A stretch of DNA of 64,000 nt from Cladocopium goreaui (taxonomy: Eukaryota > Sar > Dinophyceae > Suessiales > Symbiodiniaceae). Made by a program: the position numbers and the translations under genes. Below, one piece after another: positions 22,242-54,048 of this stretch (position 1 is the first letter of the stretch; each line of letters starts with the position of its first letter). The notes beneath the pieces were generated by a model that saw only the letters and a program-made list of their open reading frames with translations, was not told the DNA's origin and ran no database searches. The stretch lies in assembly GCA_947184155.2 (NCBI GenBank), contig CAMXCT020000313.1, positions 655,472 through 719,471 of the forward strand, given 5' to 3'.

Positions 22242-22343
22242 ACATCATATTAGATCCCATTAAACCACCATTTTAGATCCCATGAAATCCCATTAAAGTT
22301 CCAATAACCAGAGGCGAAATCCCATGGCGACTTCTCAGGTAAC

Positions 22344-22418
22344 CAAGCTGCTGTGGCCCCCGGAGTTGGGATGGCCCCAGGTGACCACTCGACCCGAGGC
22401 CACGATCGCCGCAAAGGC
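22344..22418 (-). CDS. RCC1 repeat exon (AFAAI to GGHSSL)
   Basis: 75 nt, phase 0 to 0, between a GGCTAG acceptor and a GT donor. Reads [15 protein letters not shown], then [10 protein letters not shown], an almost canonical repeat in one exon. It follows in frame from the exon at 22623-22652. The next downstream exon is uncertain. Confidence 0.85.
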
Positions 22419-25400
22419 CTAGCCGCAGATCTTCCAGTTTTCCATGAGGTTTTCTTGGTGGAGTTTTGGTGGAGTTTTTGGTGAAATTTATGGTGATTTC
22501 ATGATGTTTTATGAAGATTTCATTGTGATTTCATGGGATTCAATGGTAGGTGGTGTTTTATGGTGATCTGAACGTAGTCACTGCTCAAATGTCCAAAATT
22601 TCTCGGCAGTGCCGCGCAGCGCCTGTCTGGAACCTCGAATCTGCTGCACTTCCTTTGGCGCTTTGGCGAGAGGAAAGGTTGGCAGCGACGTTGGGATCAC
22701 ATGAGATGTGTAGACATAAAAACAAATAGGGATCATAGAATAATATCATAGATTATAATAGGGATTTATAATCAGGTATACAAATTGTGGGAATTATATG
22801 ATTATAGATGATTATATATGGAGTATAATAGGGATTTATAATCAACAAAATCACAGAAAAAGGAATATCACTGATATCACTGTGAAAAAAATCCGCTGGC
22901 TTCATTCTATTCCAACGTTTCACGTCGTTTCCCTAGTGGTGAAAGTGATCCTTGTTCGAACAGTCACTACAACCCCATGCAACTATCAACCGACAACAGG
23001 TTTTGGGCTCGGAATCACTTGAGCTCACTAACTTCACCCCTAAATGTGCTGGCTATTCATGGTGGCCGATTGGGAAGTACATACATATATATATATGTAT
23101 ACATATATATATATATACATATATATATACATATATATATATGTACATAATATTACATATATAATATAGATAGATATATATCTCTGTGTGTGTTGTACAA
23201 TCCCGTACATGTATATGTATATACATAATTCACCAATATCAATGTATCCTCATGATCGAGTTATCTCATATATGCGTATGTAGAAGTAAATATATATTCT
23301 AAACCGATACGTTTATTGAGTAATTATGTACCATGTTGAGATCTGATGTTGTTTAATCATGTTCGCATAATGTCCTCCTCCTCCTCTTCTTCTTCTTCAT
23401 CATCATGACCAGAATCACCACCGTTCATCTATCGTCAACGTCTTCATGAATCATCGGTTATCCATCATCAATCATCTATCATCTATCATCAATCATCTAT
23501 CATCAACATAACAATATTATCAATAAACAATAATAATAATGACACTCATCAATGATCAACCAATTACCAATCAATTCAACTCGCATTGCATTAAATCTCA
23601 TCCAATCTCAGAAAAAAAAAAAAAAGAAAAAACTAATTATGAAAAGCTCATCAAAACAGTACATCATGATCAAATCTCACATCTAGCTATTGAAAACATT
23701 ACTATTTATAGTGCGTTGATTTACCTATTGAAAATGCGCTATTTTCCATAGTTTGTTGTAAATGTTTACCAAAGGGTAAATCCTATGAAATCCCATTAGA
23801 TCCCATTAAACCACCATAAAATCTCGTAAAATCATTAAACCTCCATATTGTTTCTCATTGGTGACCTGACTTTTTCATCAGAAAATGTCATCGCCGGTGA
23901 CCGCTTTCGGTGGGGACCTCGAGCTCGTGTTGCACGGCTGAACTGTCTCCGCCGCAAAAAGGCTCCCCCCAGGTCACAGCCTGCAGAGCGCTCAGCGCCA
24001 GCGGCCGCCGACGGACAAGCGAACGACCGCGGTTCGTAATGTGGATCGAAACATGTCTTATGGGGAAAATATATGGGGAACATGATGATTTACTGAATGA
24101 ATATGAATTATTATGAATTACCCTCTGGTAAACGTTTACATAACTATGGAAAATCATATTTTTATAGCTGGGTAAATCAACTATTTCTATGGGCCATGTT
24201 CAATAGCTATGTTAAAATACCAGAGGGTAGCCCTATTACTTTACTCATCTTGAATCCCATGATTGGTGATATCCCATAATCTTAAGCCATAAAAATCCAG
24301 GGTTAATGGATATTCCCCACAAAAAAGGCCATGATCTCCCCCACTAATTAGCATTGGCATGGCACGTAGTAGATCATCGATTCACCTTAAAAACACCACG
24401 AGACCTGCGTGCCGTTTTCAGCAAGAAAATCCATGGGAGAAGCTTTGCGATCCCAGAGCACATGGAAGATTTAATAGTGATTTAACAGTCACCAAAAGAG
24501 GTAAAAGGTAAATCATCTGGTTATGACATTCACACTTTGCCATGGGAAAATCCAGCCATTTTATAGCTAGCTAAACCCAGGTAAACCATCTATTTAATCT
24601 ATTTCGATTAGGGCCATGGAAAATCACCATGGCGAACTGTGAATGTCATAAAACCAGATGGTAAATCCTATTAAGTCCCATTAGATCCCATTAAACCACC
24701 ATAAAATCACCATTTTTAATAGGTAAACCATCTATAAATGGGTCATCTATACCAGGGTAAACCATGGTGTTCATCCTACCTATTCACCATCCACAGATCA
24801 ATTGCCGGAGTCCAAAAGGTCCACCGGCCCGATTTCAGGGCACCCAGAAAGCTGCCACTCGTGACCGCAACTGCGCCACAATATGGATGTGGGTCAAAAT
24901 GGAAGACCGTTAAGGGAACCACAGATGTGAATGTCTAGTTTAGTATTAACCATCCATAATTTTGGGGTACCTAATTTTGACCCATACCCATATTTTTAGC
25001 CAGCCCTACGAAAAAATGATACATGACTTTGTCTATCAATTATGGGTTACCAATGATTACAAAAAAGTACTTTTTAGAGAAGCAACAAAAATCTGCAGAT
25101 TCCTCCCAAGCCAAAAGCTCGAAGCCCACGTGATGCCATTCGTGTTGTGCTACTGAAAGCCCGAAGATGAACGAGGCAGAAATCGCCAAGTAAGTTGCTC
25201 AAATCATCTTTAAAACCATATTATATAAATCATCTTAAACCATCAAAAAGTAAGTTTAAATCCTGAAATTGTGTAAGTGATTTATTGATCAAAACATCAT
25301 CCTGAATCAGTGAATCAGATTCATGATCAACCATTAAATAGGGGATAACAGTACATTGTTCATTTCAAGACCATTACCCTCTGGTAAATTAACATAGACC

Positions 25401-28400
25401 CTGGCAGATAGGGGTTGGAAGACTAGTTTCCATTGAAACTAGGCTATTTTCAGGGTCTATGTTTATTTACCAGAGGGTAAATGATCTGAAAAATCCCCAC
25501 ATTTCTCTGCTTGAACTCCCCACATAACAAAGTGCCCGATTTCAGTGCCCATGGCCCCCACCTGTCCATTCTTCAAGATGGCAGCAAAGGCAAAGGCCGT
25601 GGCTGCAACCTGTTGTACGTCCTCGACATTGAAATGCTGCGACAAGACCATCAACAGATGGGGATTTAAAGAGATTTAATGGGATTTAATTTAATGGGAT
25701 TTAATGGGATTTAACGGGATTTAATGGGATTCAACGGGATTTAATGGGATTTATATAATGGGATTTGATGGGATATAATCAGGGAATCAAACATTTCTCA
25801 AACATGGCTGTCTGGGAAATTACACCTACCTCATACCTCACATCATCTGGATCACCCAAAAAGAAGTTCTTGGGATAGCACTAAAACAATTCCTTTGCTG
25901 GGTCCTATTTTGATGGGAATTTCATGGGAAAATCATCTACGAATGGGAATATGGGATCAGAATGCTGAAAAAAATCGGAATTGATAGGATATATAATTGC
26001 ATAAAATTACCCAACAATACAGTATAAATCTGGTCGGTCGGTGGTTGAGTGTGTCAGTGATCCACCCGCTGATGGCTTTCTCACTTGGAGAGATTCGACA
26101 AGAGCCATTACCTATTAGATGCGAAACAATATGGTAGTAAATCATTGATGTAATGCTCAGTTTGTACTCAATCGGGTGTGTCTGAGAATGGGCTGCACCT
26201 CCCAAATGGTCATTTTTAATGGGGAAAATGATGATATCCATTGGAATTGGAGTTTCTGCAGCTTCCCCATGGACAAACCTGGGAACTGCTACCCAATCCA
26301 TGAAGGTACACATCACCAGACCCAGAAGGGACCGCAGCCACTTTGCACTTTCATGCGATATCTCCAGTTTGTTGCGTATCTGTGTTTTGGTTGCCTTTTG
26401 TCTGAGTTCTATTGCAGTATATTGCAGTTTTTTTTGTTTGCGCCCTTTTTTTTGTTGGTGAAACCCAACATTCGTCAACTCTCCAAGTGTGCACATCAAG
26501 CCACATCTTCCATCATGATTCCGAGAACTAAGTCATAAAAAAGTCCATCGTTTTCTACCAGGTTACCAGTACCCGAGCATGGGTGAAACTTATCCTGTAC
26601 CCTCTGGTAATGACTAACATAGCTATTGAAAATGGCCCACTCGAAATAGTGAGTTTTCCCATTAAAAGTGGTGGATCTTTCCAGTTCGCTATGGATTGCT
26701 ATAGCAAAAATGTCCAGCCAGCCAATATCACATCCCTACCACCATGTCCATGGACATCACCCGAATCACCATTTCTGAAAATTTGTCTGAAAATAGGCGT
26801 TTCCCGATTCCATCCATTGGGTTTGTCTAACCATTTCTTCCCAATCAAATGGCACATTGTTGGGCAATGTTGGGCAAATATCAAGTTTCAGACCCCCAGA
26901 ATCATGGGTCTTATCCCATATTTTTGTCCATTGGATCCTATAATTGCATCCCTGCAAATCCTCTCAACAATAAATCCCCAACCAAACGCTCTAAAAAATC
27001 CCATCCGGAAAAAAAACACATCTTCGCACGTCGTTTTCAACGTGTCGTTGGAATTTCCGACCATTTTTCCACCATTTTCCCAGGAAATCACCCAGAAATC
27101 ACCATTTTCCGTCCCACCTTCAGCAAGCGGTCCACGCGCGCGGAGTCGCCACCGCAACAAGGGTCACCCCAGGTGACCACGCCTCCCAATGCGCAAGGCA
27201 TGGAGAGATGGTTATCGTATTTATTTACCATAATACCATATGGTTATATAATAAGGTTATATATAATTACATATATATATGGTTTATTTATATATATACC
27301 ATCTGGTTATTTAACATAGCCATTCCAAATCACCATTATATTTATATGTTTTATATACCATATACGGTTTACTTTCTAGGGGAATAGTGACTTTTTTAGT
27401 GGATCATTTAATAGTTATAACTTATAACCAGATGGTATATTTACCATATTACCATAGTTAATCACCATCATTAACCAAATGGGATTCATTGAGATTTCCA
27501 GATCAATCGCGTTCGAAAGATTCATCCTCCTTGAATCCCGTGGATGGCAGTGACAGATGGTTTACTTTCTAGGGAATAGTGGATGTTAACGGATCATTTA
27601 ATAATAAATAACCAGATGGTAATGATGGTATATATATACCATATATTAGCTCACCATTAATCACCATTAATCACCATTAATCACCACCATTAACGATTGT
27701 TAGTTGGTACTGGTTGGTGGTTGAGCCACCCATCAACACCATCAGAATCACCATGAAAATCATGGTCATCCCACCATGAACGGTGGGAAATTCTCCCAAG
27801 GATTGGGGCAGCCACGGAAAAAAAGGTGGGAAATTCTCCACGGGGATTGGAGAAAAACCAACACGAATCTGGTGAAAATTTCACGGGGAGAATACACTTG
27901 AATACACCATACCTGGAGATATGACCTGGTTGGTGGTTGGTATACCTACCCCTCTGAAAAATGATGGAGTTCGTCAGATTGGATCATCATCCGAACTATT
28001 GGGGAAAATAAAAAATGTTCCAAACCACCAGCCAGTGAAAAAATTGAGGACGTATTGGGGATCTATTGAAAGCAAAACTCAGCCCCTTGCAGTGGATTTA
28101 ATTCTCGTTGATGGGACTATCCATAATAATATGTTTAGATATATTCAGCAAAAACAGAGCACTCTCAATCAAAACATTTGAACGCAGAGTTGCTCCTTTC
28201 AAATCCCGAATATATATATAATGTGTATATATAATTATATATACTCTTCTAATATCCCTACTATATCCCGAAGAAATCCCCATAAAAATATGCTTGATAA
28301 ATCCCCGTCCCGTCCGGTGGCCTCCGGAATGCAGCACGGCGCAGAAGGCCCGCTCATTGGAGTGGAGCTGATAGACGTCCTGCATTCGCCAGGCTGAGAT

Positions 28401-29464
28401 GATTTTAGGGATGTTGATGATCTTACTGAACGCAGGGATGTGCTAAACGCAGGGAATGGATGGGACTGGGGGTTGCTAGGATGATTATTGATAGTGATGA
28501 CTGGGATCATTCCCGAAAATTCCCTGCGTAAAACGCACCAGTAAGTGATGTCTGGATAGAAAATATGGGTTTATGATGGACAAAAATTAGGAAGAGTTAT
28601 AATGATACTATGTGTAGATAGAAAGTATAGGCCAATTCCCAAGTTTTCATGATGGAATACTAATGAGAATATGGAATGGATAGAAATAGAAGATGCATGA
28701 TGTTTACAACCACTATTTCTAGTCATCCCAGGAAAATTAATAAGAAATCTTCAGAACATACAAAGCGATTTTTTCATATCATCCCACGGGATTTTCCCTA
28801 TGGCTCGCCCCTCCTGCTGTCAAGAACATCTTTCCTGGCGCCTATACTGAAATAAGGCGCCAGGATGACTTCCCGAATCCTATCATTTGAATTCATCCAG
28901 ATATGTATATAATTTTATATAATTATTCGAATATATTTGATCCAGAATATCTCCGACATATAACTAGATCTGGGTGATTCTCATAATTATCTATATATTT
29001 GATATTAGTGGGTTACAATAATGGGGGTTCTTCAAATGGTGGATCCCCAAGTCACCATGGGTTTCAATACTAAAATGCTCATCCATGACTTGGATGATTT
29101 GGGATTTGGGGTACCTGTACCCGCATGACATCTTTGTTGATTTATGGATGCTTCTTGGAGGATTCATGCATGATTTATGGCGGATAATATATGATAAGAT
29201 TACCATTCTGAATACTGTAATCATGATAAATCATGATAAATCATGATAAGTCTCATCTTAGGTCAGTTACAGTAATAGCTAGGTCGCTTGGGCCATGGCT
29301 TTTCTAGCGACTATCCCAAGGAGATCCTGCAAATGCATCTCGACTTCTGTGCTGTCACCTCCGGCCTCGGCTACACCGCATTTGCATCATCGGATTATAT
29401 TATTATTGTTGTTATTATCATTATTGGTGTTAGTAAAATTATTATTATTACTATTATTATTATA

Positions 29465-29500
<36 letters not shown>

Positions 29501-38133: not shown

Positions 38134-38164
<31 letters not shown>

Positions 38165-41100: not shown

Positions 41101-41265
41101 CTATCTATCTATTTATCTATCTATCTATCTGCTCCTTTTTCTTTGGATGGCCTATTTACCACCCTGGTTATCTATGTTTATCAACTCGAGATATTAATAT
41201 TTAAGATCTAAATCAGATACGGTAGTAGTAGTACTAGTGGTAGTAGTAGTAGTAGTAGTCGTCGT

Positions 41266-41297
<32 letters not shown>

Positions 41298-44200: not shown

Positions 44201-47200
44201 CCTGGATAAATTACTATTAATTGGCATATTCTATGGATATACCTATATGGATCATAGAGAATATTACGGCATACCATGGGATATTTCTTTGCATATGGGA
44301 TAACATGGGACTTGAGGAATAGCCACGAAGAGCCAATGGGATAACATGATGATACACACAGCGATTTCTCGGTGAAACGAGACCATTGTTGTTTCAATAC
44401 ATTTTGTCATGGTCTAGTAAAAGGATGATTTGGGGGTACCTCGATATGTGAAACCACAAACAAGATTTTAAAAAAAGTTAGCAACCACCAAAGCCTATCG
44501 TAGCGAGCTAGAAGTAGTTGGACATGAAACGATGTGGGTAGACCTTCTGTCTTTGACCGTTGAGCAGAAATGTGAATAAATGTGAATTACACTACGTAAC
44601 ATGTGTTCTTCTCCATGACTTAGTTTAAGCATGTATAACCGAGTTTAACATCACTAAGTGGGCTTAAAATTGTCACACATGAGAATTAAGAGAACTGTCT
44701 GGTAATTGAACAAGATTGAACAATGTTAAAAGTCACTTGAAGTTCATTGATTTCTTGGAGATAAAAACATATGAAAGCCCAAACAGAATCAACAAATGTT
44801 GAAACCAACCTGAAAAAAGTTGGCTTACATGACTCTAACTCTAAGATGTTTTAGAGATCCCTTACGATACCCGATGAGCCAATGTCGTCCTCACAGATGG
44901 CAAGGTTCGGAAACATCAAGCCCTGGATGTCGGAAATACTGTGAATTCACATGGAATTGCCCTTTCAATCAATGATTTCCTGGGAGGTTCCATGGCATAA
45001 TTTCCGTACCTCTGTGTAAAAAAGGAAATTCCACGATGCCCACGCTGCCCACGATGCCCCGCCTGAGATATGCAGTTGCCGCCATGTGAACGACCCCAGC
45101 CTAGGCAGGTCGCTTTCGGTTTTTCATTGGGGTTCCCCAGCCTGATGCTTCCGATCCGAAGAAAAATTAACACAAAAGACAGCCCGTCCCCCCATGCCAT
45201 GGAAGACACTTTCCACGGTACCATCGTTGTGCAAGGCGGCAAAGCTGCCCCTCAGTACGCTTGAAGATGTTAAAGAGGATAATATATGTTGATATCTCCA
45301 CCAGATATGAGACTAAATGATGATATATAGTGTATACTGTATCTATATCATTAAGTATGACATATATATATATATATAAATGACTATATCCTTTATCATT
45401 GATATATCCACATCTATATCGTGTATATGTTTGATATATGTTTAATATATGATGATACATTCTCACTGGTGATATCTCCATGCAAGGACTGTAGTTACAA
45501 TTTAACCTCAAACTATCTTAAACTTAAATTACCAAAAGTTCAGGAATTACATTCACCGAATTCCTCACATGTGGAAAATTCAGCCGAAGAGAATTTTCAT
45601 TTTCACCAGGTGGCCCTGGTAAGAACATCAACAAATGGCTGGGATTCCTAACATGGGATGCTCCAAGGACCAGATCGTGTCGAGAATAGAAACATGTTGA
45701 GCCACAATCTTCTGCTTTTATTGCTACCCCCTCCCGGGAGGTTTTGACGGATCTGAGGGGCTAAAAATCTTATGCCAAGGGGCACTGTGCCTGGGCGCAC
45801 GCAACGAGTTGCGCCAGGAGTGATGGGGTGGCTATATACATGGCATGTACATTATATAGATATGTATTTGTATATATATATACATATATATATATATGTA
45901 TATATATACATATATATATATACATATATATATATACATATATACATATATATATATATATACATATATATACATATATATATATATACATATATATATA
46001 CATATCACAAACTATATCTAATATAGTATTATTCCTGATATGTATATTTGCAAATATCAAAAAATGGACCTGTTGAAACTGCAAAACTCTCAGTGGTTCT
46101 CTTTCTAATTTGCTGGTAACAAATGATAGTCCCGCCTCCTGCGACGGCCCTGGGTCTGAACATGGGGCACCCGCATTTTTTTTCAACGGTGGATCCATGG
46201 AATTTACCTAAATTGAAATGGCCATACAATGAGGTGAATAGTGTTTCATATTTAAGATCATAATTGCATAATCACCATCAGAATCACCATATAATCACCA
46301 TATCATCACCATCAGAATCACCATCAGAATCACCATATAATAATCACCATATAATCACCATCAGAATCACCATATAAGAATCACCATATAATCACCATAT
46401 AATCACCATATAATCACCATATAATCACCATATAATCACCATATAATCACCATATAATCACCATATAATCACCATATAAGAATCACCATATCATCACCAT
46501 CAGAATCACCATCTGTACTCCATTTTCAACACACACACTCAGATATCATATTGGTTGTATATCCTAATATCCCATGAAAAATCCCCGTGACATTCCCCAT
46601 ACTTTGTCGGAAATAATCATAAAATATCTCACCAAAAAGCATGATTTTCTCGAGTTGCAGCTTAAGTTACCATACTTGGATGGTTAAAATCGTGAAACAT
46701 CAGGACTTACTGCTTCTCCATGGGGAATTTGATCCAATCCCTAAGAATTTCAACCAACCATCCCATTCCCCGGTTTTTTTTCTTTCCGTTAAGTCACCAT
46801 GCCATATATGCCATACTCCCCAGATCATTTTCAAATATGATATTAGTATATATATTAGTCATGTCAAAATATGAAATATGATCATTTCTGTTTCATACAC
46901 CATATAATCACCATTAGAATCACCATATCATCACCATCAGAATCACCATCCCATCCCCAACTCAGATCAGCTCACCTTGGATTTGCTTCACGTTCTCAAG
47001 CCAACGGCCAGATTGGGCTTTTCCACCCATGCTGGAGTCACCCCAAGAAATCACCTGGATTTTCAGCATCAAAATCTGGGATTTCACCACGGATTTTTCA
47101 CCTATTTGCTGATGAGTCATGACTGACTGTAGGAGAGTGACATATCTTGGGATCTTAAGAGTGGGAAATTTTGTAGGATATCATGGGATCTTTTTCTGAC

Positions 47201-50200
47201 ATATATATATAATTATACATATTCAAATTCTATGGGGAAAAAATGATGCTATGTGATTAATGTCAAAACATCTACGGAAATCATGTTGATAGTATATGAC
47301 ACTAACAACAAATTGCAATCCTGGTTGTTCCATATTTTGACACTACGCGGCATCCAACCAGGTCCCAACCAGCAAATTCCTTTCCGGCGACTCGCCAAAC
47401 ATGGTTAAGAACGTCATTTTCCATATAGAAAAATGACACGGTTTGGCAAAAAAAACATTCTCAGAACAGATCCAAATAATGCTACATGGCGGAATATGTT
47501 TTCATGCAATTATCAAGTCATATCTGTCGTATGGTCAAGTTACCTGCGACGGCTATGGGCTATGGTCATCGATCCCATAATGAAAAGTGTGGATTTAACC
47601 TATGAAAAACCATGAAAAACCTATGAAAAATTCATGACAGCTACGGTGGTACCCCCATGAAAATAGATGGTTTATTTCATGCAAAATCCCATTTATAAAT
47701 GGATGACTGGGGGTACCCCCAGTCGACTTGGGAAACCTCCATATGTCTGTGTCTGCCATCTGGATTCATGTACAAGGAGGCTCTTAAAGTCGACTTTAAA
47801 AGGGGGGACCCCAATTTTCATCCCAAAAAAAACCCTCCAAGTGATGGGAAATCTAGCTACACCCCTAGAGAATGTGGATCAAATCATAAAGGGGCTTATA
47901 AGGAGCCCTTAATAGACGGCTGTCACAAGTCAGCTGTCATTGGTTTCATAGACCCCCCATCATTGGTCCATTGATTTGATTTGGAACCTGCTATGTCAAG
48001 CTGGTAGGTTGATTTGGAACCTGCTACCCTCTGGTAAACTTACATAACTATGGAAAATCATCATTTTTAATGGGAAAACTCACTATTTCTATGGCCATTT
48101 TCAATAGCTATGTTAAATTACCAGAGGGTAATAGAACCCTATCTTTGCAGGAACCGATGAAGTGAACCCAGTTCAGAACCAGCTAGGAACAAATTTGCAA
48201 CCAGTGAAACACGGATATTTTTTCCCCAGAGATATCCCCATATCATGTTGCGCCTTGCCATCCGCACGGATGGCGGCAAAGGCTCCCCCGGATGCTTGGA
48301 TTTGCTCCACGTCCCTGGATTTCATCGATCGATGGAACATTTTCATGGGCAATGTTCGACCTTTTTGGGTGGCTGTATAACTGGTTGGTGGTTTTCGCCA
48401 CTCCTCTGAAAAAAAAAAAAAATCGTCAGTTGGGATGATGAAATTCCCAATATTAATGGAAAAATCATCCAGCCATGTTCCAGTCCCCACCAACCAGATA
48501 AGGATTTGTGAGGGATTTGCGGGTGATTTTCTAGGATTTATAGATATTCATAGGTGAATCTCTAGGATATACAGGGGAGTTTCTTGGGATTTCTCAGGGA
48601 TTGTAAAGGATTATGTCTGATCATCAGAATTATAGGGAATTATATATTGGGTTTCTAATGGGAATCTGTTAGGGATTTAAAAGGGATAATATACGTTCAT
48701 GGGATTTGCAAGGGATTATGCGAGGAATGATGTTGGGAATTCATACACATTCATCATCCTGATTATTATGATGATGATGATCCTCATCATCATCATCCTC
48801 ATCATCCTCATCATCCTCATTATCCTCATCATCCTCATCATCCTCATCATCCTCATCAACCTCATCATCCTCATCATCCTCATCATCCTCATCATCCTCA
48901 TCAACTTCATCATCTTCATCATCGTCAACATCATAATCATCATAATCATCACCATACATGTGCATTCAATAACAATAACTGCAAATAATATATGTTGTGT
49001 TATAGTATATAGCCATATCATTGTGATTGGTCAAATGCTCTAGCTGTCAGAAGTGGCATGGATAAGAGGTTTCAGCAACAAAAAACTCATAGCCTCCAGT
49101 AAATTGACATATGGAGAATCCACCATGAATTTTTTGTAGATCATTCTCCGGGTTTCCCCATGGATTTCCATAAATTGTGTTGTGTAAAAACTGCTTCGGG
49201 TAGCTGGATCTTGCAGTATGTTCAACACCATTTAAGCTGCTTGTTTTTTTAATAGTTTTTTGATCAACATGGATCCAACGGTGACATATTTTAGGGATTT
49301 TAAACCACCAATCAGTTTTAGTGCAATCAAGTTATCTCATACCTTTTTTTCCCCACCTGCCAGGTGAGGGTTGTTAGATTTTATGTCAGTTGCCTCCTCC
49401 TCCTCCTGCTCCTCCTCCTCCTCCGCCTCCTCCTGCCTCGTCCTCCTCTCCTCCTCCTCCTCGTCCTCCTTGTCATCCTTGTCGTCCTTGTCGTCCTCGT
49501 CGTCCTCGTCGTCCTCGTCGTCCTCGTCGTCCTGGCTCAACTGCGACCCGCGATCCACAGTGTTCTCTGCCGGACCTCAACCACGACCACCCACGCCCAG
49601 TGTTCCCTGCCGGACCTCAACCACGACCATCCACGCCCAGTGTTCCCTGCCGGACCTCAACCGCGAGTATCCCCGCCCAGTGTTCCCTGCCGGACCTCAA
49701 CCACGACCATCCACGCCCAGTGTTCCCTGCCGGACCTCAACCGCGAGTATCCACGCCAAAAGATATGCCACATAGAGTGCCAGAAGATATGCCAGATAGA
49801 ACGTTAGAAGATATGCCAGATAGAATGCCAGAAGGTATGCCAGATAGAATGCCAGATAGAATGTCAGCTAGAATGCCAGAAGATATGCCAGATAAAGTGC
49901 CAGAATGTTTGCCAGATAGAATGCCAGCAGATTTGCCAGATAATATGCCAGAAGATATGCTAGATAGAATGCCAGATGGAATGCCAGAAGATTTGCCAGA
50001 TAATATGCCAGAAGATATGCCAGATAGAATGCCAGATGGAATGCCAGAAGATATGCCAGAACATATGCCAGAAGATATGCCAGAAGATATGCCAGAACAT
50101 CTGCCAGAAGATATGCCAGAACATCTGCCAGAAGATATGCCAGAACATCTGCCAGAAGATATGCCAGGTAGAATGCCAGAAGATATGCCAGATAGAATGC

Positions 50201-53200
50201 CAGATCGAATGCCAGAAAATATGTCAGATAGAATGCCAGAAGATTTGCCAGTAACAAAATGTATAAATGTCATGGTGGGGATCACACGAAGTAAAGTATT
50301 TTTTTGCTGCTTGTTCACCCATCGCCCAATCTCAATCTCCAAAAAAACATAAATATTACATATATATACATATATATATACATATATATATACATATATC
50401 CTATATTACTATAGTATATGGCCAATCTCCTATTTCATCCACGTTTTGAAAGTTCATCAAATCCCGTTTTGAAAGTTCTGTCTCCCGAAAGGTGCCCAAC
50501 TTGGCGCAATTTGCTAAGGAAAGTCACCATTTTAATAGTATGTAGATGTATATATATATACAGTATATACAATATATATATATACGTATGTATATATATG
50601 GGCCATGTCTTCAGCTATGTTCAATTACTGGAAGGTAATTCCCATGAATATCCCTATATCGTTGGTAAAATCCCAACAAAAATCACCATCAAATGTCCAT
50701 GTCCAAAATTCATCACCGCATCCCATTCATCCAAGTGAATCACCATTGATCCCATTAATCACTCGAAAAAACACCATTAAAACATATGGATGTGGGTCAA
50801 AACCCTGTACCCCTGGTGAACCCCAAAATAGCTGGTAAATGGATGTTCATCCCACTAAAAATGGTATTAATAGGTATTGATCCATACCCATATTACCCTC
50901 TGGTAAACTTACAAAAAACGAACTATGGAAAATCACCATGTTTAATGGGAAAATCAACTATTTCTATGGCCATTTTCTATGTCGCAAACTGTTAATTTTA
51001 CCAGAGGGTAAAACACCAGGTGAACCCATGAATCACCGGCTGCTGCCTGAGCTCTTGCTGAACCATCGAGGAGTCTCCTCCCATGCGGTTGGAGCCCCAA
51101 CCTGACAGTGGAAAGGATCGGGATCTGCCGGAGATGTTTTCATCAGGGATTTCTCACGGGATAATGGGAAAAACCCATTACTGGTTGGTGGTTGACCTAC
51201 CCATCTTGAAAAATATGAAAGTCAATGGGAAGGATGACATCCCATATATTATGGAAAAAAAAAAATGTTCCAAACCACCAACCAGAAGGAGATAGAGGGT
51301 TTTTTAATCTAACTACCCTTCGATGATTTCTTACGTAGCTATTGAAAATCACCATTTTTTTAGAAAAGCATCGAACCAATGGGCGATTTCCATAGCATTT
51401 TCCATAGCAGTAACCATCAGAATGGGAAGTCCTGGAAATGGAGGTTTTTTCATGGGAAGTTTCCATGGGAATCCCATGGGAATTCTGGATGTTTCACTCT
51501 GGTCATCCCATGAAACATGGGAATCCAGTTTCATGCCATGGGCAAAAAAAAAACATATAAATATCTACGTACATTCCCGTGGATTGATATGGATTGATGA
51601 CCATCCCCGTTTATATGGAAAAACAAGGCCCATGTTTAACGTCCCGTTTAAGCACATGTGGATATGACCAAAAAAAAGGATATGTGGCTTTGACAAAAGG
51701 GGATATTCTATGGATATTCTTGGGGATTGATGACCAGAACATCCCCAGCTGATATGGATCTACCCTCTGGTAACCTGGTAAACTAACAGCTTGCTATTGA
51801 AAATGGCCATAGAAATAGTGGATTTACACAATAAAAATTGTGATTTTCCACAGTTACGTTAGTTTACCAGAGGGTAGTGACTCATATGACTAATATGGAG
51901 TTCATCGGTATTGAGGAAATTAGTAGGATATACGGCGAAGACAATGATCTAGAGGGATTTAGGCAACAAATATCGAGTGTCTGAACATGGCGAATTAAAA
52001 CCATATGTATGTATATATAATTATATATATATAATTATAGCAACGATGAGAATATTCATGGTGACACTTTATGGGATGTAAATATGTTTTAAAAAAAAAT
52101 GATGATAAGTGACCAGCAAAATCGGATTTCTTCGAACAACCGTATGATGATCACCCAAATTAAGGGATGTTTTTGTAGGCATGATCAACAAACAATGGAT
52201 ATGATATGTCTTAGGTATAGGCTGCAATACGTTTTCTTTAGTGTTATTTATCACTTATGTTAGGGGTTATTTATCACTTACTTAGCCGGGAGTTATTTAT
52301 CACATAATTTGGAGTTATTTATCACTTAATTTGGACATATCATATGTCCATTTAGGGGTTTATATAACTTGAACCAAGAAAATGGGACATTTGACGAAAC
52401 AAACTTTCGGTGAGCCAGCCAAGATAAAATGGGGTATGGTAAGCTTCAAAAGTGAAGACGGCTGACCCAAGGAGGACGGCTAAAACGGACCGCATGTTTG
52501 GTCGTGGCTAAGCTTGGCAGGCTTAGCTGCCCGCTATAACAAACACATGCTTGGCCGAAAACAGTATGAAATTTCCGCAGAAACTGGTGTAGCAGTGTAG
52601 CCGAATCCATTTTTCACTGCACCAGTCACCTAAAACGATCGCGAAGTCGTCCCTTGTTTCACCCATGTTTTACTGTTCCTCTTCGAATCTCGTTGCTTAC
52701 CCAAAACCTTCTATCAACAGTTCAACCATGTTCAACCATGTTAAACCACACTTAGAAACATCATATGACACTTATATAGTCTAGTTAACCCAAGTCTGTG
52801 AAAAATTCCCTTCTTTTTCTTGCCCCTTTATAAGTTGCCGTTTCTTTACCCACATCTTTCACCCACCGCCGAGCTACTCACTACCGAGCCATCGCCCTTC
52901 ATCAGTGCGAAGGCATAACTCTGCCGTGTCGACGCCAACTTGGCGTGTCGCACGGTGGCCTCGATGAGGCAAAAAATCGACGAAGAAACCGCTGGATGAA
53001 AAAAAAACAGTGGGGATTAGATGTTCTCTGGATATATATACGTGCATATAAATATATATTATAACATAAATATATTATATAACATAAATATATATTATAA
53101 CATAAATATATTATAATTATATATATATATTATAACATAAATGTATAACATAAATATATAATGTACATATTAAAGACATATCTATATAATTCTATATATT

Positions 53201-54048
53201 ATAATACACAAAGATGATGATATTGTGGATCTATGTTCATCTAACATACAGAAATGGCAGCTTTGCGGCTACATCTCCTGTTACCCTAGGACAGTTACCC
53301 CTAGGACTCCAAGGGAACCGTGGGGTTTTTGTTTAAGGACAAAAAGCCATCGGTTAGATTTCGGTCCAACATCCAATTCCCATCCGACATGTGGGCACAG
53401 TGCCCATCTTTGGCAGCACCTGTCTGTCAACTTGCTTTTACCCAAGAGTTTTGCTCTGAAACCGGGCCATTGCTCGGTCGGGATTCCATGTCGACTTCGG
53501 GGCTTGCCACCGCACTTTCAAAGTGTACCACATTTCCTGGCCTCCTACAGGACCCCAGTGATGAAATTCATGTCAATTGATGTCTAAGCCCATCCAACGC
53601 AGTATAGATATAGTGCGTACCCGGCCTGGTAAACGTTTACAAAAAACCATGGAAAATCACCAGCATTTTCTATGGGTGATCCATGGGAAAATCCATGCCT
53701 CGCCACAGAAATTTCGCGTTAGCGATTGCCACAGGTCAAAGAGTAAGGGTATGCACCATCCCCATCCAAATGTAATTAGATACAGTATATATATATATTA
53801 TATAATTATTTATTTATATATTAAATATTATCACTATTATTATTAGTAGTAGTATTATTATTGTTATTAGTGTTATATTGCATGATATTCCTATAGAATG
53901 CTGGTTTTTCCTCATCATCCAGTGGTCATTCCTCAATTGGTCAACATCTTTTTCTACCAACTTCCCTTGAGTTCTCGCGGTTCAGCAAGCAGCGTGTAGC
54001 AAGTCATCATCCTTGAGGCCCACTTCTTTCAATGTGTTGCGGCCTGTC
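22344..54048 (-). CDS. RCC1/HERC-type repeat protein gene (multi-exon span)
   Basis: This entry spans the best-supported part of the gene; each exon is listed separately. RCC1 repeats form seven-bladed propellers and act in chromatin, Ran-GEF or HERC-type ubiquitin-ligase proteins. The molecular role of the dinoflagellate versions is unknown to me. The exons at 54048-41997, 36646-34430, 32050-25085 and 23980-22344 join in consistent phase into repeats of DVQQI-AT-AFAAIL-DG-VVTWGD-GGDSS-V--QL. Exon borders recur at the same repeat positions: after the DG before VVTWG, and before DVQQI. Introns run from 0.2 to 5.3 kb and hold family A or B elements. Donors are GT, GC and apparently GA; acceptors are AG. 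Start and stop codons are not identified, and the repeat run probably extends left of 22 kb in degenerate form. Confidence 0.8.
22623..22652 (-). CDS. RCC1 repeat micro-exon ([10 protein letters not shown])
   Basis: A 30-nt exon coding [10 protein letters not shown], phase 0 to 0, with a CAAAG acceptor and a GC donor. It bridges the exon ending AVQHELE (23918) and the one starting AFAAI (22418) exactly as the repeat consensus predicts. Confidence 0.75.
23074..23165. repeat. TATATACA microsatellite
   Basis: (TA)n/(TATACA)n run of about 90 bp. Confidence 0.9.
23680..23778. mobile_element. Family B TIR element (diverged left end)
   Basis: Right end TGTTTACCAAAGGGTA, internal TAGCTATTGAAAACATTACT and TTTTCCATAGTTTG. 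The left TACCCTCTGG is eroded. It lies in the intron between the exons at 23918 and 22652. Confidence 0.5.
23918..23980 (-). CDS. RCC1 repeat exon ([14 protein letters not shown])
   Basis: 63 nt, phase 0 to 0, with a CTGCAG acceptor and GAG/GTCCCC donor. Reads [20 protein letters not shown] plus E. All signature residues (WG, GGDSS) are intact. GC content is much higher than in flanking introns. Confidence 0.88.
24119..24229. mobile_element. Family B TIR element
   Basis: TACCCTCTGGTAAACGTTTA ... AATAGCTATGTTAAAATACC then AGAGGGTA. Sits in an intron of the RCC1 gene, about 140 bp upstream of the exon at 23918-23980. Confidence 0.85.
24388..24406 (-). CDS. Possible 19-nt micro-exon
   Basis: Between an ACGCAG acceptor and a TTTAAG/GTGAAT donor. 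In phase it would add SRGVFK and connect the exon at 24825-24870 to the one at 23918-23980. The alternative reading [12 protein letters not shown], contiguous with upstream bases, also looks like a repeat fragment. Confidence 0.28.
24510..24664. mobile_element. Family B long variant
   Basis: ATCTGGTTATGACATTCACA ... AACTGTGAATGTCATAAAAC then CAGATGGTA. Same long-arm version as 22084-22241 but with GATGG in place of GAGGG. Confidence 0.7.
24825..24870 (-). CDS. RCC1-like exon ([11 protein letters not shown])
   Basis: 46 nt between a GCGCAG acceptor and a GCCG/GTGGAC donor. Reads [15 protein letters not shown], corresponding to VQQIxATxxAFAALLKSGR with substitutions. Phase with its neighbours works only if the possible micro-exon at 24388 is used. 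Confidence 0.5.
25085..25149 (-). CDS. RCC1-like exon ([11 protein letters not shown])
   Basis: Follows a CAGTAG acceptor in phase 0, matching the phase-0 end of the exon at 25562-25621. Reads [19 protein letters not shown], equivalent to VVTWGSSxxGGxxLQ with WG changed to WA. Its donor is not certain, so the lower boundary is approximate. Confidence 0.5.
25375..25479. mobile_element. Family B TIRs around an unrelated hairpin core
   Basis: Ends TACCCTCTGGTAAATTAACA and TTTATTTACCAGAGGGTA are typical. The core ACATAGACCCTGGCAGATAG ... CTATTTTCAGGGTCTATGTT is a different, longer stem not seen in other copies. It lies in the intron between the exons at 25562 and 25149. Confidence 0.8.
25562..25621 (-). 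CDS. RCC1 repeat exon ([17 protein letters not shown])
   Basis: 60 nt, phase 0 to 0, with a GTCGAG acceptor and GGACAG/GTGGGG donor. Reads [20 protein letters not shown]. It joins perfectly after the exon at 27118-27182 ending RVDRLLK. Confidence 0.88.
25660..25774. repeat. GGGATTTAAT tandem repeat
   Basis: About ten copies of GGGATTTAAT with small changes, immediately beside the exon at 25562-25621. Confidence 0.85.
26598..26694. mobile_element. Family B element, right end truncated
   Basis: TACCCTCTGGTAATGACTAA then CATAGCTATTGAAAATGGCC. After TCTTTCCAGTTCGCTATGG the ACCAGAGGGTA end is lost. Same subtype as 18515. Confidence 0.65.
27118..27182 (-). CDS. RCC1 repeat exon ([16 protein letters not shown])
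   Basis: 65 nt. Starts with two bases that complete the Gly codon opened by the exon at 28322-28379, then [16 protein letters not shown] and DRLLK; ends in phase 0 at AAG/GTGGGA. Canonical repeat residues, GC-rich. Confidence 0.9.
27297..27439. mobile_element. Family B-related element (diverged)
   Basis: ACCATCTGGTTATTTAACAT ... TTATAACCAGATGGTA. The interior is AT-rich and diverged. A shorter related piece with ATAACCAGATGGTA ends at about 27623. Confidence 0.5.
27926..28035. mobile_element. Family A TIR element
   Basis: CTGGTTGGTGGTTGGTATAC ... TTCCAAACCACCAGCCAG, with CCCCTCTGAAAAATGATGGA inside. It lies in the intron between the exons at 28322 and 27182. Confidence 0.8.
28322..28379 (-). 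CDS. RCC1 repeat exon ([19 protein letters not shown])
   Basis: 58 nt from an ATGCAG acceptor to a GGAG/GC donor. Reads [19 protein letters not shown] plus one base. Joining over the GC-AG intron to 27182 gives ...[11 protein letters not shown], exactly the repeat consensus. Confidence 0.88.
28834..28864. repeat. Perfect 10-bp stem hairpin
   Basis: CCTGGCGCCT and AGGCGCCAGG separated by 11 nt in an intron. GC-rich stem in an AT-rich context. No adjacent gene end suggests a terminator. Confidence 0.6.
29327..29365 (-). CDS. RCC1 repeat exon ([13 protein letters not shown])
   Basis: 39 nt, phase 0 to 0, reading [13 protein letters not shown] after a CCGAG acceptor and ending at CAG/GATCTC (GA donor). 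It supplies the GGDSS part between DRTVVTWGD (30492) and DVYQLHS (28379). Confidence 0.75.
30492..30518 (-). CDS. RCC1 repeat micro-exon (DRTVVTWGD)
   Basis: 27 nt after a CGTCAG acceptor, reading DRTVVTWGD and ending at GAT/GAAACA (GA donor). If read through, a stop appears six codons later, so the GA donor or another mechanism is needed to continue the frame. It joins in phase from the exon at 31939-32050. Confidence 0.72.
31120..31380 (+). repeat. Degenerate TTTAGGGTT-like repeats
   Basis: Several TTAGGGTTT/TTTAGGGTTGTT motifs spaced by 8-15 bp, interrupted by a TATATA run. Resembles an interstitial, decayed TTTAGGG telomere-type array, though it is imperfect. Confidence 0.45.
31939..32050 (-). 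CDS. RCC1 repeat exon (FGGDL to [10 protein letters not shown])
   Basis: 112 nt with a CCCTAG acceptor and GCGTCG/GTGAGT donor, phase 1 to 0. Reads [20 protein letters not shown], then [17 protein letters not shown]. Extremely GC-rich (CGCGGC runs) within AT-rich flanks. The longest clearly bounded exon. Confidence 0.9.
32149..32234. repeat. TGAATTATGG 10-bp tandem repeat
   Basis: Eight to nine near-perfect copies of TGAATTATGG, starting about 100 bp upstream of the exon at 31939-32050. Confidence 0.9.
32890..33021 (-). CDS. Probable RCC1-like exon ([14 protein letters not shown])
   Basis: GCGCCAG acceptor followed by [14 protein letters not shown], parallel to [14 protein letters not shown]. 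The frame stays open through [12 protein letters not shown], which resembles LADGSVVTWG. Its donor and its join to the next exon are unresolved. Confidence 0.5.
33498..34375. repeat. Large (ATAAT)n AT satellite
   Basis: Nearly 900 bp made only of A and T in its main part, mainly TATAATATAATTAATAATA. Lies in an intron between the exons at 34430-34541 and 33021. Confidence 0.95.
34430..34541 (-). CDS. RCC1 repeat exon ([19 protein letters not shown])
   Basis: Begins after TTGACAG in phase 0, reads EQLR then [19 protein letters not shown], then [15 protein letters not shown]. It joins in phase from the exon at 36566-36646. Unlike other repeats, the DG-VIAWG junction is not split by an intron. 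The lower boundary is approximate. Confidence 0.88.
34823..34930. mobile_element. Family B TIR element
   Basis: TACCCTCTGGTGAACTAACA ... TTTTGTATGTTCACCAGAGG then GTA. Intronic copy, upstream of the exon at 34541. Confidence 0.85.
35103..35205. repeat. (TATATA)n microsatellite
   Basis: About 100 bp of TATATATTATA repeats. Confidence 0.9.
35220..35340 (-). repeat. 12-bp ATGCCAGATAGA minisatellite, array 2
   Basis: Repeats of TCTATCTGGCATTCTGTCTG type. In reverse complement they match the ATGCCAGATAGA/ATGCCAGAAGAT array at 49757-50253. The minus frame reads as MPDR/MPER tetrapeptides. Confidence 0.8.
35458..35567. mobile_element. Family A TIR element
   Basis: CTGGTTCGTGGTTGAGCCAC ... TTCCAAACCACCAACCAC. 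Flanked by ATAT on both sides if the terminal C is taken as a mutated G. Confidence 0.8.
36355..36560. repeat. CACCATTAAA-type tandem repeat
   Basis: Degenerate array of CACCATTAAA, CACCATGAAG and ATCCCATTAA units running up to the exon at 36566. Confidence 0.75.
36566..36646 (-). CDS. RCC1 repeat exon ([16 protein letters not shown])
   Basis: 81 nt, phase 0 to 0, with a CGCGCAG acceptor and CCG/GTGTTT donor. Reads [20 protein letters not shown], then EIVGTQP. All RCC1 signature positions are intact. Confidence 0.92.
36759..36869. mobile_element. Family B TIR element
   Basis: TACCCTCTGGTAAACTAACA ... GCTATGTTAAATTACCAGAG then GGTA. A partial ACCCTCTGG end also occurs at 36684. Confidence 0.85.
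36909..37020. mobile_element. Family A TIR element
   Basis: CTGGTTGGTATACCTACCCC ... TTCCAAACCACCAACCAG. The left end lacks the GTGGTT step (internal deletion). Only 39 bp from the family B copy ending at 36869. Confidence 0.8.
37457..37990. repeat. 41-bp tandem satellite
   Basis: About 12-13 copies of a 41-bp unit containing GTACTGGGAAGTAGTTTGTG and CAAGCTTTGTAGTACA. Because 41 is not a multiple of three, each minus frame stays open, giving long but meaningless reading frames. Confidence 0.95.
38742..39353. repeat. 68-bp TCCGGA satellite, left arm (about 9 units)
   Basis: Units contain GCGGTCCGGAAAGACATGCA, GCGGTCCGGAAAAGCAAGCA and CCCAAAACGTACTCTAATTG. Each unit carries two TCCGGA palindromes. 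Two subtypes, ending in TAGCCATT or TAGATATC, are intermixed. Confidence 0.95.
39551..39690. repeat. CT microsatellite (CTGTCTCT)n
   Basis: Nearly pure (CTCTGTCT)n tract between the two satellite arms. Confidence 0.95.
39745..40512. repeat. 68-bp TCCGGA satellite, right arm (about 11 units)
   Basis: Reverse-complement orientation of the left-arm array, ending in the same GCATGTGTTTCAAGTACAAT flank. Carries about two more units than the left arm. Confidence 0.95.
41220..41522. repeat. GTA trinucleotide microsatellite
   Basis: (GTA)n with GTC, GTT and GCA interruptions over 300 bp. The poly-Val frame is an artefact. Confidence 0.95.
41997..42053 (-). CDS. Probable RCC1-like exon ([12 protein letters not shown])
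   Basis: 57 nt, phase 0 to 0, from a TTCACAG acceptor to an AGG/GATATG (GA) donor. Reads [19 protein letters not shown], equivalent to DGSVVTWGxxDxxGGSSR with WG altered. It joins in phase from the exon at 42587. Another frame with [10 protein letters not shown] is also possible. Confidence 0.48.
42183..42294. mobile_element. Family A TIR element
   Basis: TTGGTTGGTGGTTGAGCCAC ... TTCCAAACCACCAACCAG, with a duplicated ATGTTCCAA near the right end. Confidence 0.8.
42587..42650 (-). CDS. RCC1 repeat exon ([13 protein letters not shown])
   Basis: After a GGCCCAG acceptor reads YSFGAVREL then [12 protein letters not shown], ending at GAG/GACGAC (GA donor). AFAAL and the preceding V-EL-AS spacing are typical. 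The exon also contains a second, weaker repeat half (YSFGAV), unusual for this gene. Confidence 0.72.
42950..43310 (-). pseudogene. Protein-like remnant with two in-frame stops
   Basis: The minus frame begins with [20 protein letters not shown], continues [15 protein letters not shown], a stop, then [20 protein letters not shown], another stop. Length and composition look like protein, and there are no RCC1 motifs. Plus-strand frames are also open, so the strand is not certain. Possibly a degenerate retrocopy or transposon gene inside the intron. Not recognised. Confidence 0.3.
43526..43647. mobile_element. Degenerate family B element
   Basis: TACCCTCCGGTAATAAACAT ... GGCTAAGTATTAAATTACGC then GGTA. 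The core is strongly diverged. Confidence 0.4.
43927..44050. mobile_element. Family A TIR element with 4-bp TSD
   Basis: CTGGTTGGTGGTTTTGGTAT ... TTTGAAACCACCAACCAG, flanked by CCAT on both sides. Variant core with GGATGACATCCCATATATGA. Confidence 0.85.
44127..44167 (-). CDS. RCC1 repeat exon ([11 protein letters not shown])
   Basis: Begins after ATTGCAG in phase 0 and reads [11 protein letters not shown], the QLKNVQQI segment of the repeat. It follows in phase from [12 protein letters not shown] at 45063. Either the GC donor after CTGGG or the GT donor near 44126 may be used; the first gives the right phase for 42650. Confidence 0.75.
45063..45100 (-). CDS. RCC1 repeat micro-exon (WGRSHGGNC)
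   Basis: 38 nt from a TGCCTAG acceptor to a CAG/GC donor. The first two bases complete a Ser codon, then [14 protein letters not shown] and GG are conserved. Confidence 0.78.
45210..45259 (-). CDS. RCC1 repeat exon ([12 protein letters not shown])
   Basis: 50 nt. One base completes the codon from 46972, then [16 protein letters not shown] plus one base, ending at A/GTGTCT. Joined to 45100 it reads [15 protein letters not shown], a canonical repeat. Confidence 0.8.
45850..46010. repeat. (TATATACA)n microsatellite
   Basis: About 160 bp of TATACATA repeats. Confidence 0.92.
46258..46513. repeat. ATAATCACCAT 11-bp tandem repeat
   Basis: About 20 units of ATAATCACCAT with CAGAATCACCAT variants. 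A smaller piece recurs at 46900-46950 next to the exon at 46972. Confidence 0.92.
46972..47054 (-). CDS. RCC1 repeat exon ([11 protein letters not shown] to NVKQIQ)
   Basis: Starts in phase 0 after AATCCAG, reads [19 protein letters not shown] then ENVKQIQ. Two donors are possible: GT after CAAG (46976) or GC after GGTGA (46972). The GC choice gives the phase needed for 45259. WG and GG are intact. Confidence 0.88.
47348..47404 (-). other. Weak RCC1-like stretch, probably intronic
   Basis: The minus frame [19 protein letters not shown] resembles a repeat only loosely. The flanking exons at 48254 and 47054 already join perfectly without it. Confidence 0.2.
48025..48130. mobile_element. Family B TIR element
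   Basis: TACCCTCTGGTAAACTTACA ... GCTATGTTAAATTACCAGAG then GGTA. A near-consensus copy inside the GC-AG intron between 48254 and 47054. Confidence 0.88.
48254..48314 (-). CDS. RCC1 repeat exon ([18 protein letters not shown])
   Basis: 61 nt from an AATCCAG acceptor to an AAG/GC donor, phase 1 to 0. Reads [20 protein letters not shown]. It joins in phase to both neighbours (51047 upstream, 47054 downstream). Confidence 0.92.
48381..48497. mobile_element. Family A TIR element with 4-bp TSD
   Basis: CTGGTTGGTGGTTTTCGCCA ... CCAGTCCCCACCAACCAG, flanked by ATAA on both sides. Inserted about 70 bp upstream of the exon at 48314. An A14 run lies inside. Confidence 0.88.
48762..48952. repeat. TCATCATCC microsatellite
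   Basis: About 190 bp of TCATCCTCATCATCC, the complement of the GATGATGAG array at 17488. Confidence 0.93.
49390..49540. repeat. TCC/GTCGTCCTC microsatellite
   Basis: Pyrimidine-biased triplets giving Pro, Ser or Arg homopolymer frames. Confidence 0.92.
49553..49756. repeat. 40-bp tandem repeat
   Basis: Five units of CAGTGTTCCCTGCCGGACCT followed by CAACCACGACCATCCACGCC, with a CGAGTATCC variant. GC-rich satellite. Confidence 0.93.
49757..50253 (+). repeat. 12-bp ATGCCAGAAGAT minisatellite, array 1
   Basis: About 40 units of ATGCCAGA plus AGAT, TAGA or ACAT. Because 12 is a multiple of three, all frames are open. The plus frame reads MPEDMPDR tetrapeptides and forms, with the two preceding repeats, a 320-codon frame (49390-50352) that I regard as spurious. 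It lies within the intron between 51047 and 48314. Confidence 0.93.
50894..51010. mobile_element. Family B TIR element
   Basis: TACCCTCTGGTAAACTTACA ... ACTGTTAATTTTACCAGAGG then GTA. Ends 36 bp from the exon at 51047, just inside the intron. Confidence 0.85.
51047..51101 (-). CDS. RCC1 repeat exon ([17 protein letters not shown])
   Basis: 55 nt from a CTGTCAG acceptor to a CTCAG/GC donor. Reads [17 protein letters not shown], with split codons at both ends. Joining gives SVVSWG at the front and QELRDVEQIQ at the back, matching the repeat consensus at both seams. Confidence 0.9.
51181..51285. mobile_element. Family A TIR element
   Basis: CTGGTTGGTGGTTGACCTAC ... TTCCAAACCACCAACCAG. Variant core with GGAAGGATGACATCCCATAT. 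Its left end lies 80 bp from the exon at 51101. Confidence 0.82.
51761..51876. mobile_element. Family B TIR element
   Basis: TACCCTCTGGTAACCTGGTA ... GTTACGTTAGTTTACCAGAG then GGTA. Left TIR carries a short internal duplication (CTGGTAACCTGGTAA). Confidence 0.82.
52878..52959 (-). CDS. RCC1 exon following the N-terminal module
   Basis: 82 nt from an ATCGAG acceptor to a GTGA/GTAGCT donor. Reads [20 protein letters not shown], then KGDGSVV plus one base. The VRxAKLASTR...AFALxxGDGSVV pattern is what normally links the ubiquitin-like leader to the first RCC1 repeat in such proteins. Confidence 0.9.
53033..53210. repeat. TATAACATAAATA AT-rich repeat
   Basis: Degenerate repeats of TATTATAACATAAATA. 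Confidence 0.85.
53225..53590 (+). other. Unassigned GC-moderate block
   Basis: Less AT-rich than its surroundings and open on both strands (plus-strand reading [20 protein letters not shown], minus-strand reading [20 protein letters not shown]). No motif recognised; could be an old transposon or retrocopy fragment. Confidence 0.3.
53619..53665. mobile_element. Family B left-end fragment with TACCCGGCC variant
   Basis: TACCCGGCCTGGTAAACGTT then TACAAAAAACCATGGAAAAT. Same variant end as at 19441; the rest of the element is missing. Confidence 0.55.
53994..54048 (-). CDS. N-terminal ubiquitin-like module, last exon
   Basis: 55 nt from an ACTCAG acceptor to a CAC/GC donor. Reads [18 protein letters not shown]. 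This corresponds to the LDGxxTVKEAGLQDGDLLT end of the ubiquitin-like leader found in dinoflagellate RCC1-repeat proteins. It joins in phase to [10 protein letters not shown] at 52959. Confidence 0.8.

Follow-up and report, generated by a model that had tools for sequence, protein, structure and literature searches.

A probable RCC1-type repeat gene in about twenty tiny exons, and its intron-free relatives, in the dinoflagellate Cladocopium goreaui

A split repeat gene on the minus strand

The window—the whole stretch of 64,000 nucleotides of Cladocopium goreaui DNA analysed here, whose positions are used throughout—carries on its minus strand, from 54048 to 22335, what can with good confidence be read as most of one dinoflagellate protein-coding gene with tiny exons and RCC1-type repeats. 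As judged from its sequence, this RCC1-type repeat gene is very probably real, with some twenty tiny exons distributed across 32 kb. Its exons and two features of its introns are as follows.

Exon 1, 53994..54048, minus: end of the ubiquitin-like region; donor GC; moderate support
Exon 2, 52878..52959, minus: linker and first half repeat
Exon 3, 51047..51101, minus: spliced profile alignment
Exon 4, 48254..48314, minus: six-frame match and spliced profile alignment
Exon 5, 46969..47054, minus: spliced profile alignment; donor ambiguous among nearby sites
Exon 6, 45210..45250, minus: spliced profile alignment; weaker
Exon 7, 45063..45100, minus: spliced profile alignment; weaker, donor uncertain, its own local match lying outside the exon
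Exon 8 (PSELKNV), 44145..44167, minus: 23 nt; in the runs with 9 bits per join and G donors only; weak alone
Exon 9, 42587..42629, minus: donor GA; in the runs with 9 bits per join and G donors only; weaker
Longest intron, 36647..42586, minus: 5940 nt; holds a 1.2-kb inverted repeat, largely of 68-bp units
Exon 10, 36587..36646, minus: donor GA; six-frame match and spliced profile alignment
Exon 11, 34456..34541, minus: donor GT; six-frame match and spliced alignment; local match of 55.9 bits
Exon 12, 31948..32050, minus: donor GC; spliced profile alignment
Dispersed repeat of about 520 bp, 31091..31609, minus: within the intron 31947-30519
Exon 13, 30486..30518, minus: donor GA; spliced profile alignment
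Exon 14, 29327..29365, minus: donor GA; spliced profile alignment
Exon 15, 28322..28379, minus: donor GC; spliced profile alignment
Exon 16, 27118..27182, minus: donor GT; six-frame match and spliced profile alignment
Exon 17, 25562..25621, minus: donor GT; six-frame match and spliced profile alignment
Exon 18, 23918..23980, minus: donor GT; six-frame match and spliced profile alignment
Exon 19, 22623..22652, minus: donor GC; spliced profile alignment
Exon 20, the last found, 22335..22418, minus: stop TGA at 22337-22335; six-frame, spliced and paralog alignments

The original prediction had joined these exons by hand from 22 exon starts (counting 36646-34541 as two). Eighteen of them are identical in the list above, while 45259 shifts to 45250 and 42650 to 42629, and the exons at 42053 and 25149 are unneeded—their neighbours already join in phase and register. 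Exon sizes, predicted as 27-112 nt, become 23-103 nt with a mean of 58 nt, and the introns, thought to reach 5 kb, range from 109 to 5940 nt; 18 of them average 1640 nt. Exons have a GC content of 61%, introns of 39%. Genes with exons of 23-60 nt and kilobase introns would easily be missed or broken by gene finders.

Translation of the predicted exon sites makes the words VVTWG, GGDSS and AFAAI.ADG recur. When the six frames of the window were searched with a doubled consensus of the 41-residue unit—drawn in part from the same predicted exons—the best 13 of 15 listed matches lie on the minus strand at 22-51 kb, inside the predicted interval (E 1.4e-8 to 2.8). Since this consensus came partly from those exons, the test was rebuilt with repeats from other contigs. 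The second profile comprises 170 unique repeats in 27 ORFs from 30 fetched loci on other contigs and holds no window sequence, its repeats having been required to agree with a consensus, itself in part window-derived, at 22 or more of 41 residues. The dynamic programme aligns a circular profile at a cost of 9 bits per join, with GT, GC or GA donors and AG acceptors. With this splice-aware procedure, the profile of the 41-residue RCC1-like repeat yields 357.7 bits over 19 exons on the minus strand, as opposed to 19.7-25.9 bits for ten first-order Markov shuffles, 23.8 bits for the plus strand and 27.1 bits for the reversed strand. A chance array of repeat-like fragments, for which short exons and permissive donors might speak, has a negligible probability in view of these twelve controls and of the strand shared by the thirteen best of the 15 listed six-frame matches; the prediction had judged this correctly. 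Searching flanks of 50 kb on either side with the first profile made the array no longer than before. A lone 35-nt stretch at 96.0 kb, set in front of the array by the second profile (run over 15-104 kb), was rejected as chance.

As predicted, phase is kept through the joins: the 20-exon model runs over 19 joins to 387 codons with zero stops, which is weaker than it looks as the splice-aware method bars stops within exons, and it closes with the TGA at 22337-22335. The repeat is likewise restored at most seams, as had been claimed, though this is partly built into such joining—hence, the independent supports are the splice signals, the base composition, the controls and the collinear paralogs. 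Ungapped local matches were also sought one exon at a time, with 60 nt added at either end of the model exon; at 13/18 joins they agreed with the expected register to within 4 residues, where about four such joins are expected (9/41 per join). The exons between 45.3 and 42.6 kb, together with the exon at 54048, are the weaker ones, and a further splice between TTG and GTTACC in exon 20 is possible.

The gene follows the dinoflagellate spliceosomal pattern of GT, GC or GA donors and acceptors in which AG is followed by G. In the run confined to G donors, the 18 introns use GC seven, GT six and GA five times; 17/18 acceptors are followed by G, and AG precedes the donor in 12/18. A neutral-donor run, in which all 16 donor dinucleotides cost the same at 12 bits per join, reaches 314.6 bits. 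Thirteen of its 18 donors are still GT, GC or GA, the other five being other dinucleotides, AG stands ahead of the donor in 9/18 and G after the acceptor in 15/18; exon 7 is shortened, and exons 8 and 9 are swapped for other stretches (42532, 37987). For Cladocopium goreaui, Table 1 of PMC9412976 gives donors of 36.6% GT, 43.6% GC and 19.8% GA, and AGG acceptors at 96.1%. In a dinoflagellate host, where by this table a normal gene has about 17 exons and donors of GC or GA are usual, a split gene is less surprising. A gene structure in many pieces is normal for dinoflagellates, and the splicing is ordinary for the group. The genome itself (1.17 Gb on 6202 contigs) bears dinoflagellate markers: 172 exact copies of a 21-nt spliced-leader core (reversed control 0) and 34 DVNP matches, with none in 14 control genomes.

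The introns are rich in repeats. Within the longest one, an inverted repeat at 38136-41112 has arms (38136-39352 and 39902-41112) alike at 95% over 1217 nt; with its 68-bp tandem arrays of 9 and 11 copies it resembles a fold-back element. In the same intron, 37467-37973 consists of twelve 41-bp tandem copies that are open in two minus-strand frames. The dispersed repeat at 31091-31609 has at least 39 copies at 72-80% identity, found with a 9.8-kb DNA query that gave dispersed repeats only (39 of 17337 first-look candidates scored). A 106-bp, MITE-like element with complementary ends (TACCCTCTGGTAA...TTACCAGAGGGTA) lies at 48025-48130 and elsewhere; it is found within the gene as well as beyond it and in either orientation, giving 54 matches over the 164-kb neighbourhood. 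A further intron holds a low-complexity array of 3-, 24-, 40- and 60-bp units at 49393-50251 that is open on both strands, and the ORF of 320 aa at this place is only apparent, its sequence being repeat.

Repeat type, domains and relatives of the predicted protein

The RCC1-repeat identity proposed originally holds in a modified form. The joined partial protein matches Pfam RCC1_2 (PF13540) with 102.9 bits at a cut-off of 22, yet its unit measures 41 aa and is not the classical RCC1 unit (PF00415) of about 50 aa. PF00415 does not match the joined protein at E 0.1, and contig C313 is absent among its 67 genome matches, for which 150 of 263 candidates were scored one exon at a time. PF25390 (WD40_RLD), a model of the whole RCC1-like domain, gives 87.3 bits and stays below its cut-off of 150. 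A HECT domain, as in HERC ubiquitin ligases, was found at E 0.1 neither in the intronless paralog P0001 nor in the partial window protein. A search of a plasmid collection gave no match. Another, distinct RCC1 family is also present in the genome (L001-L008, on contigs C1060 and C5042 of genome G000): its units are 50 aa long, and its members are single ORFs of 415-490 aa, four of which lie in about 45 kb of C5042.

BLIP-II (beta-lactamase inhibitory protein II) is a bacterial inhibitor, and its fold is an RCC1-like propeller. When sequences in the PDB were searched with an intronless paralog at E 0.001, only three BLIP-II sequences matched (43.8-45.3 bits over about 250-280 residues). Two Shewanella loci (L074 and L075) share the AFAALKQDGTVVAWGDPDCGGD motif at 30-33% identity.

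In front of their repeats, the paralogs probably begin with a ubiquitin-like domain. A profile of this N-terminus of about 75 residues—from which the misaligned rows L029 and L046 had been removed—was compared with the PDB; ubiquilin, ubiquitin-like and related chains, together with one chain that is uncharacterized, fill the top 17 of 24 rows (E 0.012-0.35). In addition, several ubiquitin-like Pfam models match some of the ten members compared, the first member staying below cut-off. For the window gene, only the last part of this region was found, in exons 1 and 2, and the paralog domain is itself a weak match to ubiquitin-like folds. Exon 1 is the best of 855 phase-0 donor-ending peptides between 53 and 64 kb against the paralog profile (6.5, the next reaching -0.2), and the alignment of the joined protein to paralogs starts within it. 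Exon 2, which is like the stretch of the paralogs where the N-terminal domain gives way to the repeats, is the top match of the N-terminal profile with 24.5 bits; the next minus-strand match reaches 19.0 and the best plus-strand match 18.3. Other N-terminal exons were sought by scanning with the profile and by permissive splicing, as far as 50 kb outside the window, and none but exon 2 rose above the plus-strand control. The permissive search scored 60.0 bits on the minus against 46.3 on the plus strand, exon 2 being the sole minus-strand piece trusted. The gene product would most likely be a binding or adaptor protein.

Intron-free paralogs and traces of retroposition

Uninterrupted arrays of the same 41-aa unit are widespread in the genome, with at least 268 matches (150 of 3541 first-look candidates scored). 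Among the 107 scored of 1719 candidates, at least 14 contiguous single-ORF paralogs align with nearly the full length of the joined protein, their identity being 45-51%; the best of those scored reaches 347.7 bits, with 51% identity across residues 9-386. In the alignment with four paralogs, 0/19 junctions fall in gaps—which is not wholly independent of the model, as the method rewards register and thereby partly imposes frame and register. Three of the four have the same number of units, and their ends lie no more than a few residues from that of the model; the fourth has one extra unit. The window gene and the ubiquitin-like/RCC1 family of this genome thus have the same repeat, a collinear array and nearly the same end in common. 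Exon 12 matches only itself at the DNA level in the genome search, so that no recent gene duplicate was seen.

A second intron-split member was not found with a pattern of TAG or CAG plus DVQQ, a weak search in which 20 of 100 sites were read (the reversed control had 24 sites). Nineteen of these 20 score at most 17.8 bits, and L064, with 86.5 bits, lies in a family locus. Intron-free arrays now seem far more numerous.

Some of the intron-free copies carry traces of a spliced leader. Passages of PMC6050394 describe leader relics as marks of dinoflagellate retrogenes, those at -50 to -100 being best kept, and the available text of PMC7245778 uses the same mark. We examined 19 different intronless ORFs in which a start was recognised; they come from the best-scoring loci and are not a random sample. 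The leader core TTTGGCTCAAG occurs with at most one mismatch 20-110 nt upstream of the start in 7/19, whereas shuffled cores at the paralogs give a mean of 0.007 and a maximum of 1. L041 has an eighth relic with 2 mismatches at -74, and L022, which is among the seven, also shows a leader with 4 mismatches at -52. Altogether, the relics of these 8/19 paralogs lie at -42 to -79 before the start. In the other 11/19 the tested zone holds none; L034 and L078 have a leader core further upstream. As L033, L043 and L079 look alike, the retroposition events would be fewer than eight. The relics upstream of the paralogs indicate that some members, at least, of the intronless family arose by the copying of mRNA, the parent of which need not be the window gene.

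These relatives also bear on the reading of the window gene as a pseudogene, an old family member whose exons persist by chance and whose protein is no longer made. Several middle exons are degenerate, the C-terminus is slightly short—by a few residues relative to the paralogs—with a divergence of about 50% from them, and the gene is a prediction from genomic DNA. Against this stand the 387 stop-free codons with the caveat given above, splice signals that are intact at most joins, and an exon GC3 of 0.69 (0.43-0.55 in the 19 intronless paralogs) next to introns of 39% GC. A decayed gene is hence an improbable reading, and we keep to that of a protein-coding gene.

Intron positions, a possible history and known systems

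The units of the array are mutually homologous, which makes intron positions comparable inside one gene. The 18 introns between repeat exons fall at 13 different places within the 123-nt unit; 11, 3 and 4 of them are in phases 0, 1 and 2, respectively. These counts depend on the model with its weak exons included. Place 63 is used three times and places 0, 7 and 114 twice each, which amounts to 6 coincident pairs against 1.58 expected (P 0.0096). The coincidences may reflect preferred sites or some copying with the repeats. Taken further, the introns might have been multiplied together with the repeats when an ancestral two-intron exon pair was tandemly duplicated—an origin that the coincident pairs favor, as does the alternation of positions near 63 and near 121-0 toward the 3' end. 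Thirteen places in all three phases argue for separate gains over the copying of one exon pair; moreover, the pieces of about 110 bp shared by introns are internal, their element is present in both orientations beyond the gene as well, and intronless arrays of the 41-aa unit exist. Duplication of a single exon pair fails to account for the gene, and we regard copying as the general origin of these introns as unlikely.

Introner transposons inserting at AGG sites might be the source of the introns. Introners are described as recently active in four of five dinoflagellates in the part of a review consulted (PMC11453091), and the AG before 12/18 donors and the G after 17/18 acceptors fit such sites. 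On the contrary, direct repeats spanning the intron ends average 3.2 nt and are mostly AG/G, and the best-shared intron pieces listed, compared within the gene, reach not both intron ends. As far as the sequence goes, nothing ties the pieces of about 110 bp to splice sites, and an introner origin remains a candidate, if a rather doubtful one.

Separate gain and loss of introns might then be arranged into one history. An intronless repeat array of bacterial type would have entered the lineage; a bacterial descent is suggested by the two Shewanella loci. The window copy would subsequently have gained introns, largely singly, which is how 18 introns could come to occupy 13 places of the repeat. 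Spliced mRNAs of the family may have been copied back into the genome, giving rise to at least some of the intronless paralogs. The pre-mRNA of the window gene would be processed by the usual spliceosome of dinoflagellates and receive the leader by trans-splicing, and its product—a probable ubiquitin-like N-terminus followed by about nine repeats of RCC1_2/BLIP-II type—could fold into a beta-propeller. We tentatively propose, at somewhat less than even confidence, that the locus constitutes a natural experiment in intron gain: an array of bacterial descent invaded unit by unit, with the mRNAs of its family recopied intron-free, making up a cycle of gain and of erasure by retroposition.

Dinoflagellates are already known for intron-rich genes, for odd donors, for an expansion of RCC1 and for the recycling of mRNA, each taken singly; this locus combines them. 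As the intron-free sister genes display the uninterrupted sequence, the locus is a good test case for whether introns were gained at preferred sites or copied with repeats. The contrast between the split gene and its intron-free, partly retroposed relatives is hence its main interest—a record of how introns come and go in a repetitive gene.

Among known systems, BLIP-II is linked to the family by the sequence match of the intronless paralog, and its binding function is not implied for the dinoflagellate proteins. The two Shewanella proteins share the AFAALKQDGTVVAWGDPDCGGD motif and space their WG pairs by 41-47 residues with one longer gap; however, their units are more diverged, and the ubiquitin-like start of the paralog is not evident in them by eye. 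These matches agree with the prokaryote-like RCC1 cluster of Symbiodinium (Breviolum) minutum, for which passages of PMC4083563 report an expanded RCC1 family of 189 genes and, in similar terms of gene structure, 19.6 exons per gene. There, too, many dinoflagellate copies exist, some of them prokaryote-like, in multi-exon genes with GC/GA donors and acceptors in which G follows AG. In its available text, that account is without a 41-aa ubiquitin-like/RCC1 family, intronless copies or an intron register, and its genes may be of another family. Two further papers taken up as RCC1 literature (PMC10522408 and PMC11114475) were set aside, the RCC1 matches shown being the strain name RCC1521.

With the dinoflagellate retrogenes of PMC6050394 and PMC7245778, as described in the available parts of both, the intronless paralogs share leader relics in or near the reported zone of -50 to -100; RCC1 and HERC are absent from the available text of the latter and from the main text of PMC12014239, which also treats dinoflagellate retrogenes. 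The window gene itself is intron-rich and has its 5' end outside the model. With ordinary Cladocopium goreaui genes, as tabulated in PMC9412976 (Table 1), it shares the donor mix, the AGG acceptors and the many exons (17.2 per gene), and it differs in proportion: its exons average 58 nt where 120 bp are published, and its introns 1640 nt where 839 bp are published.
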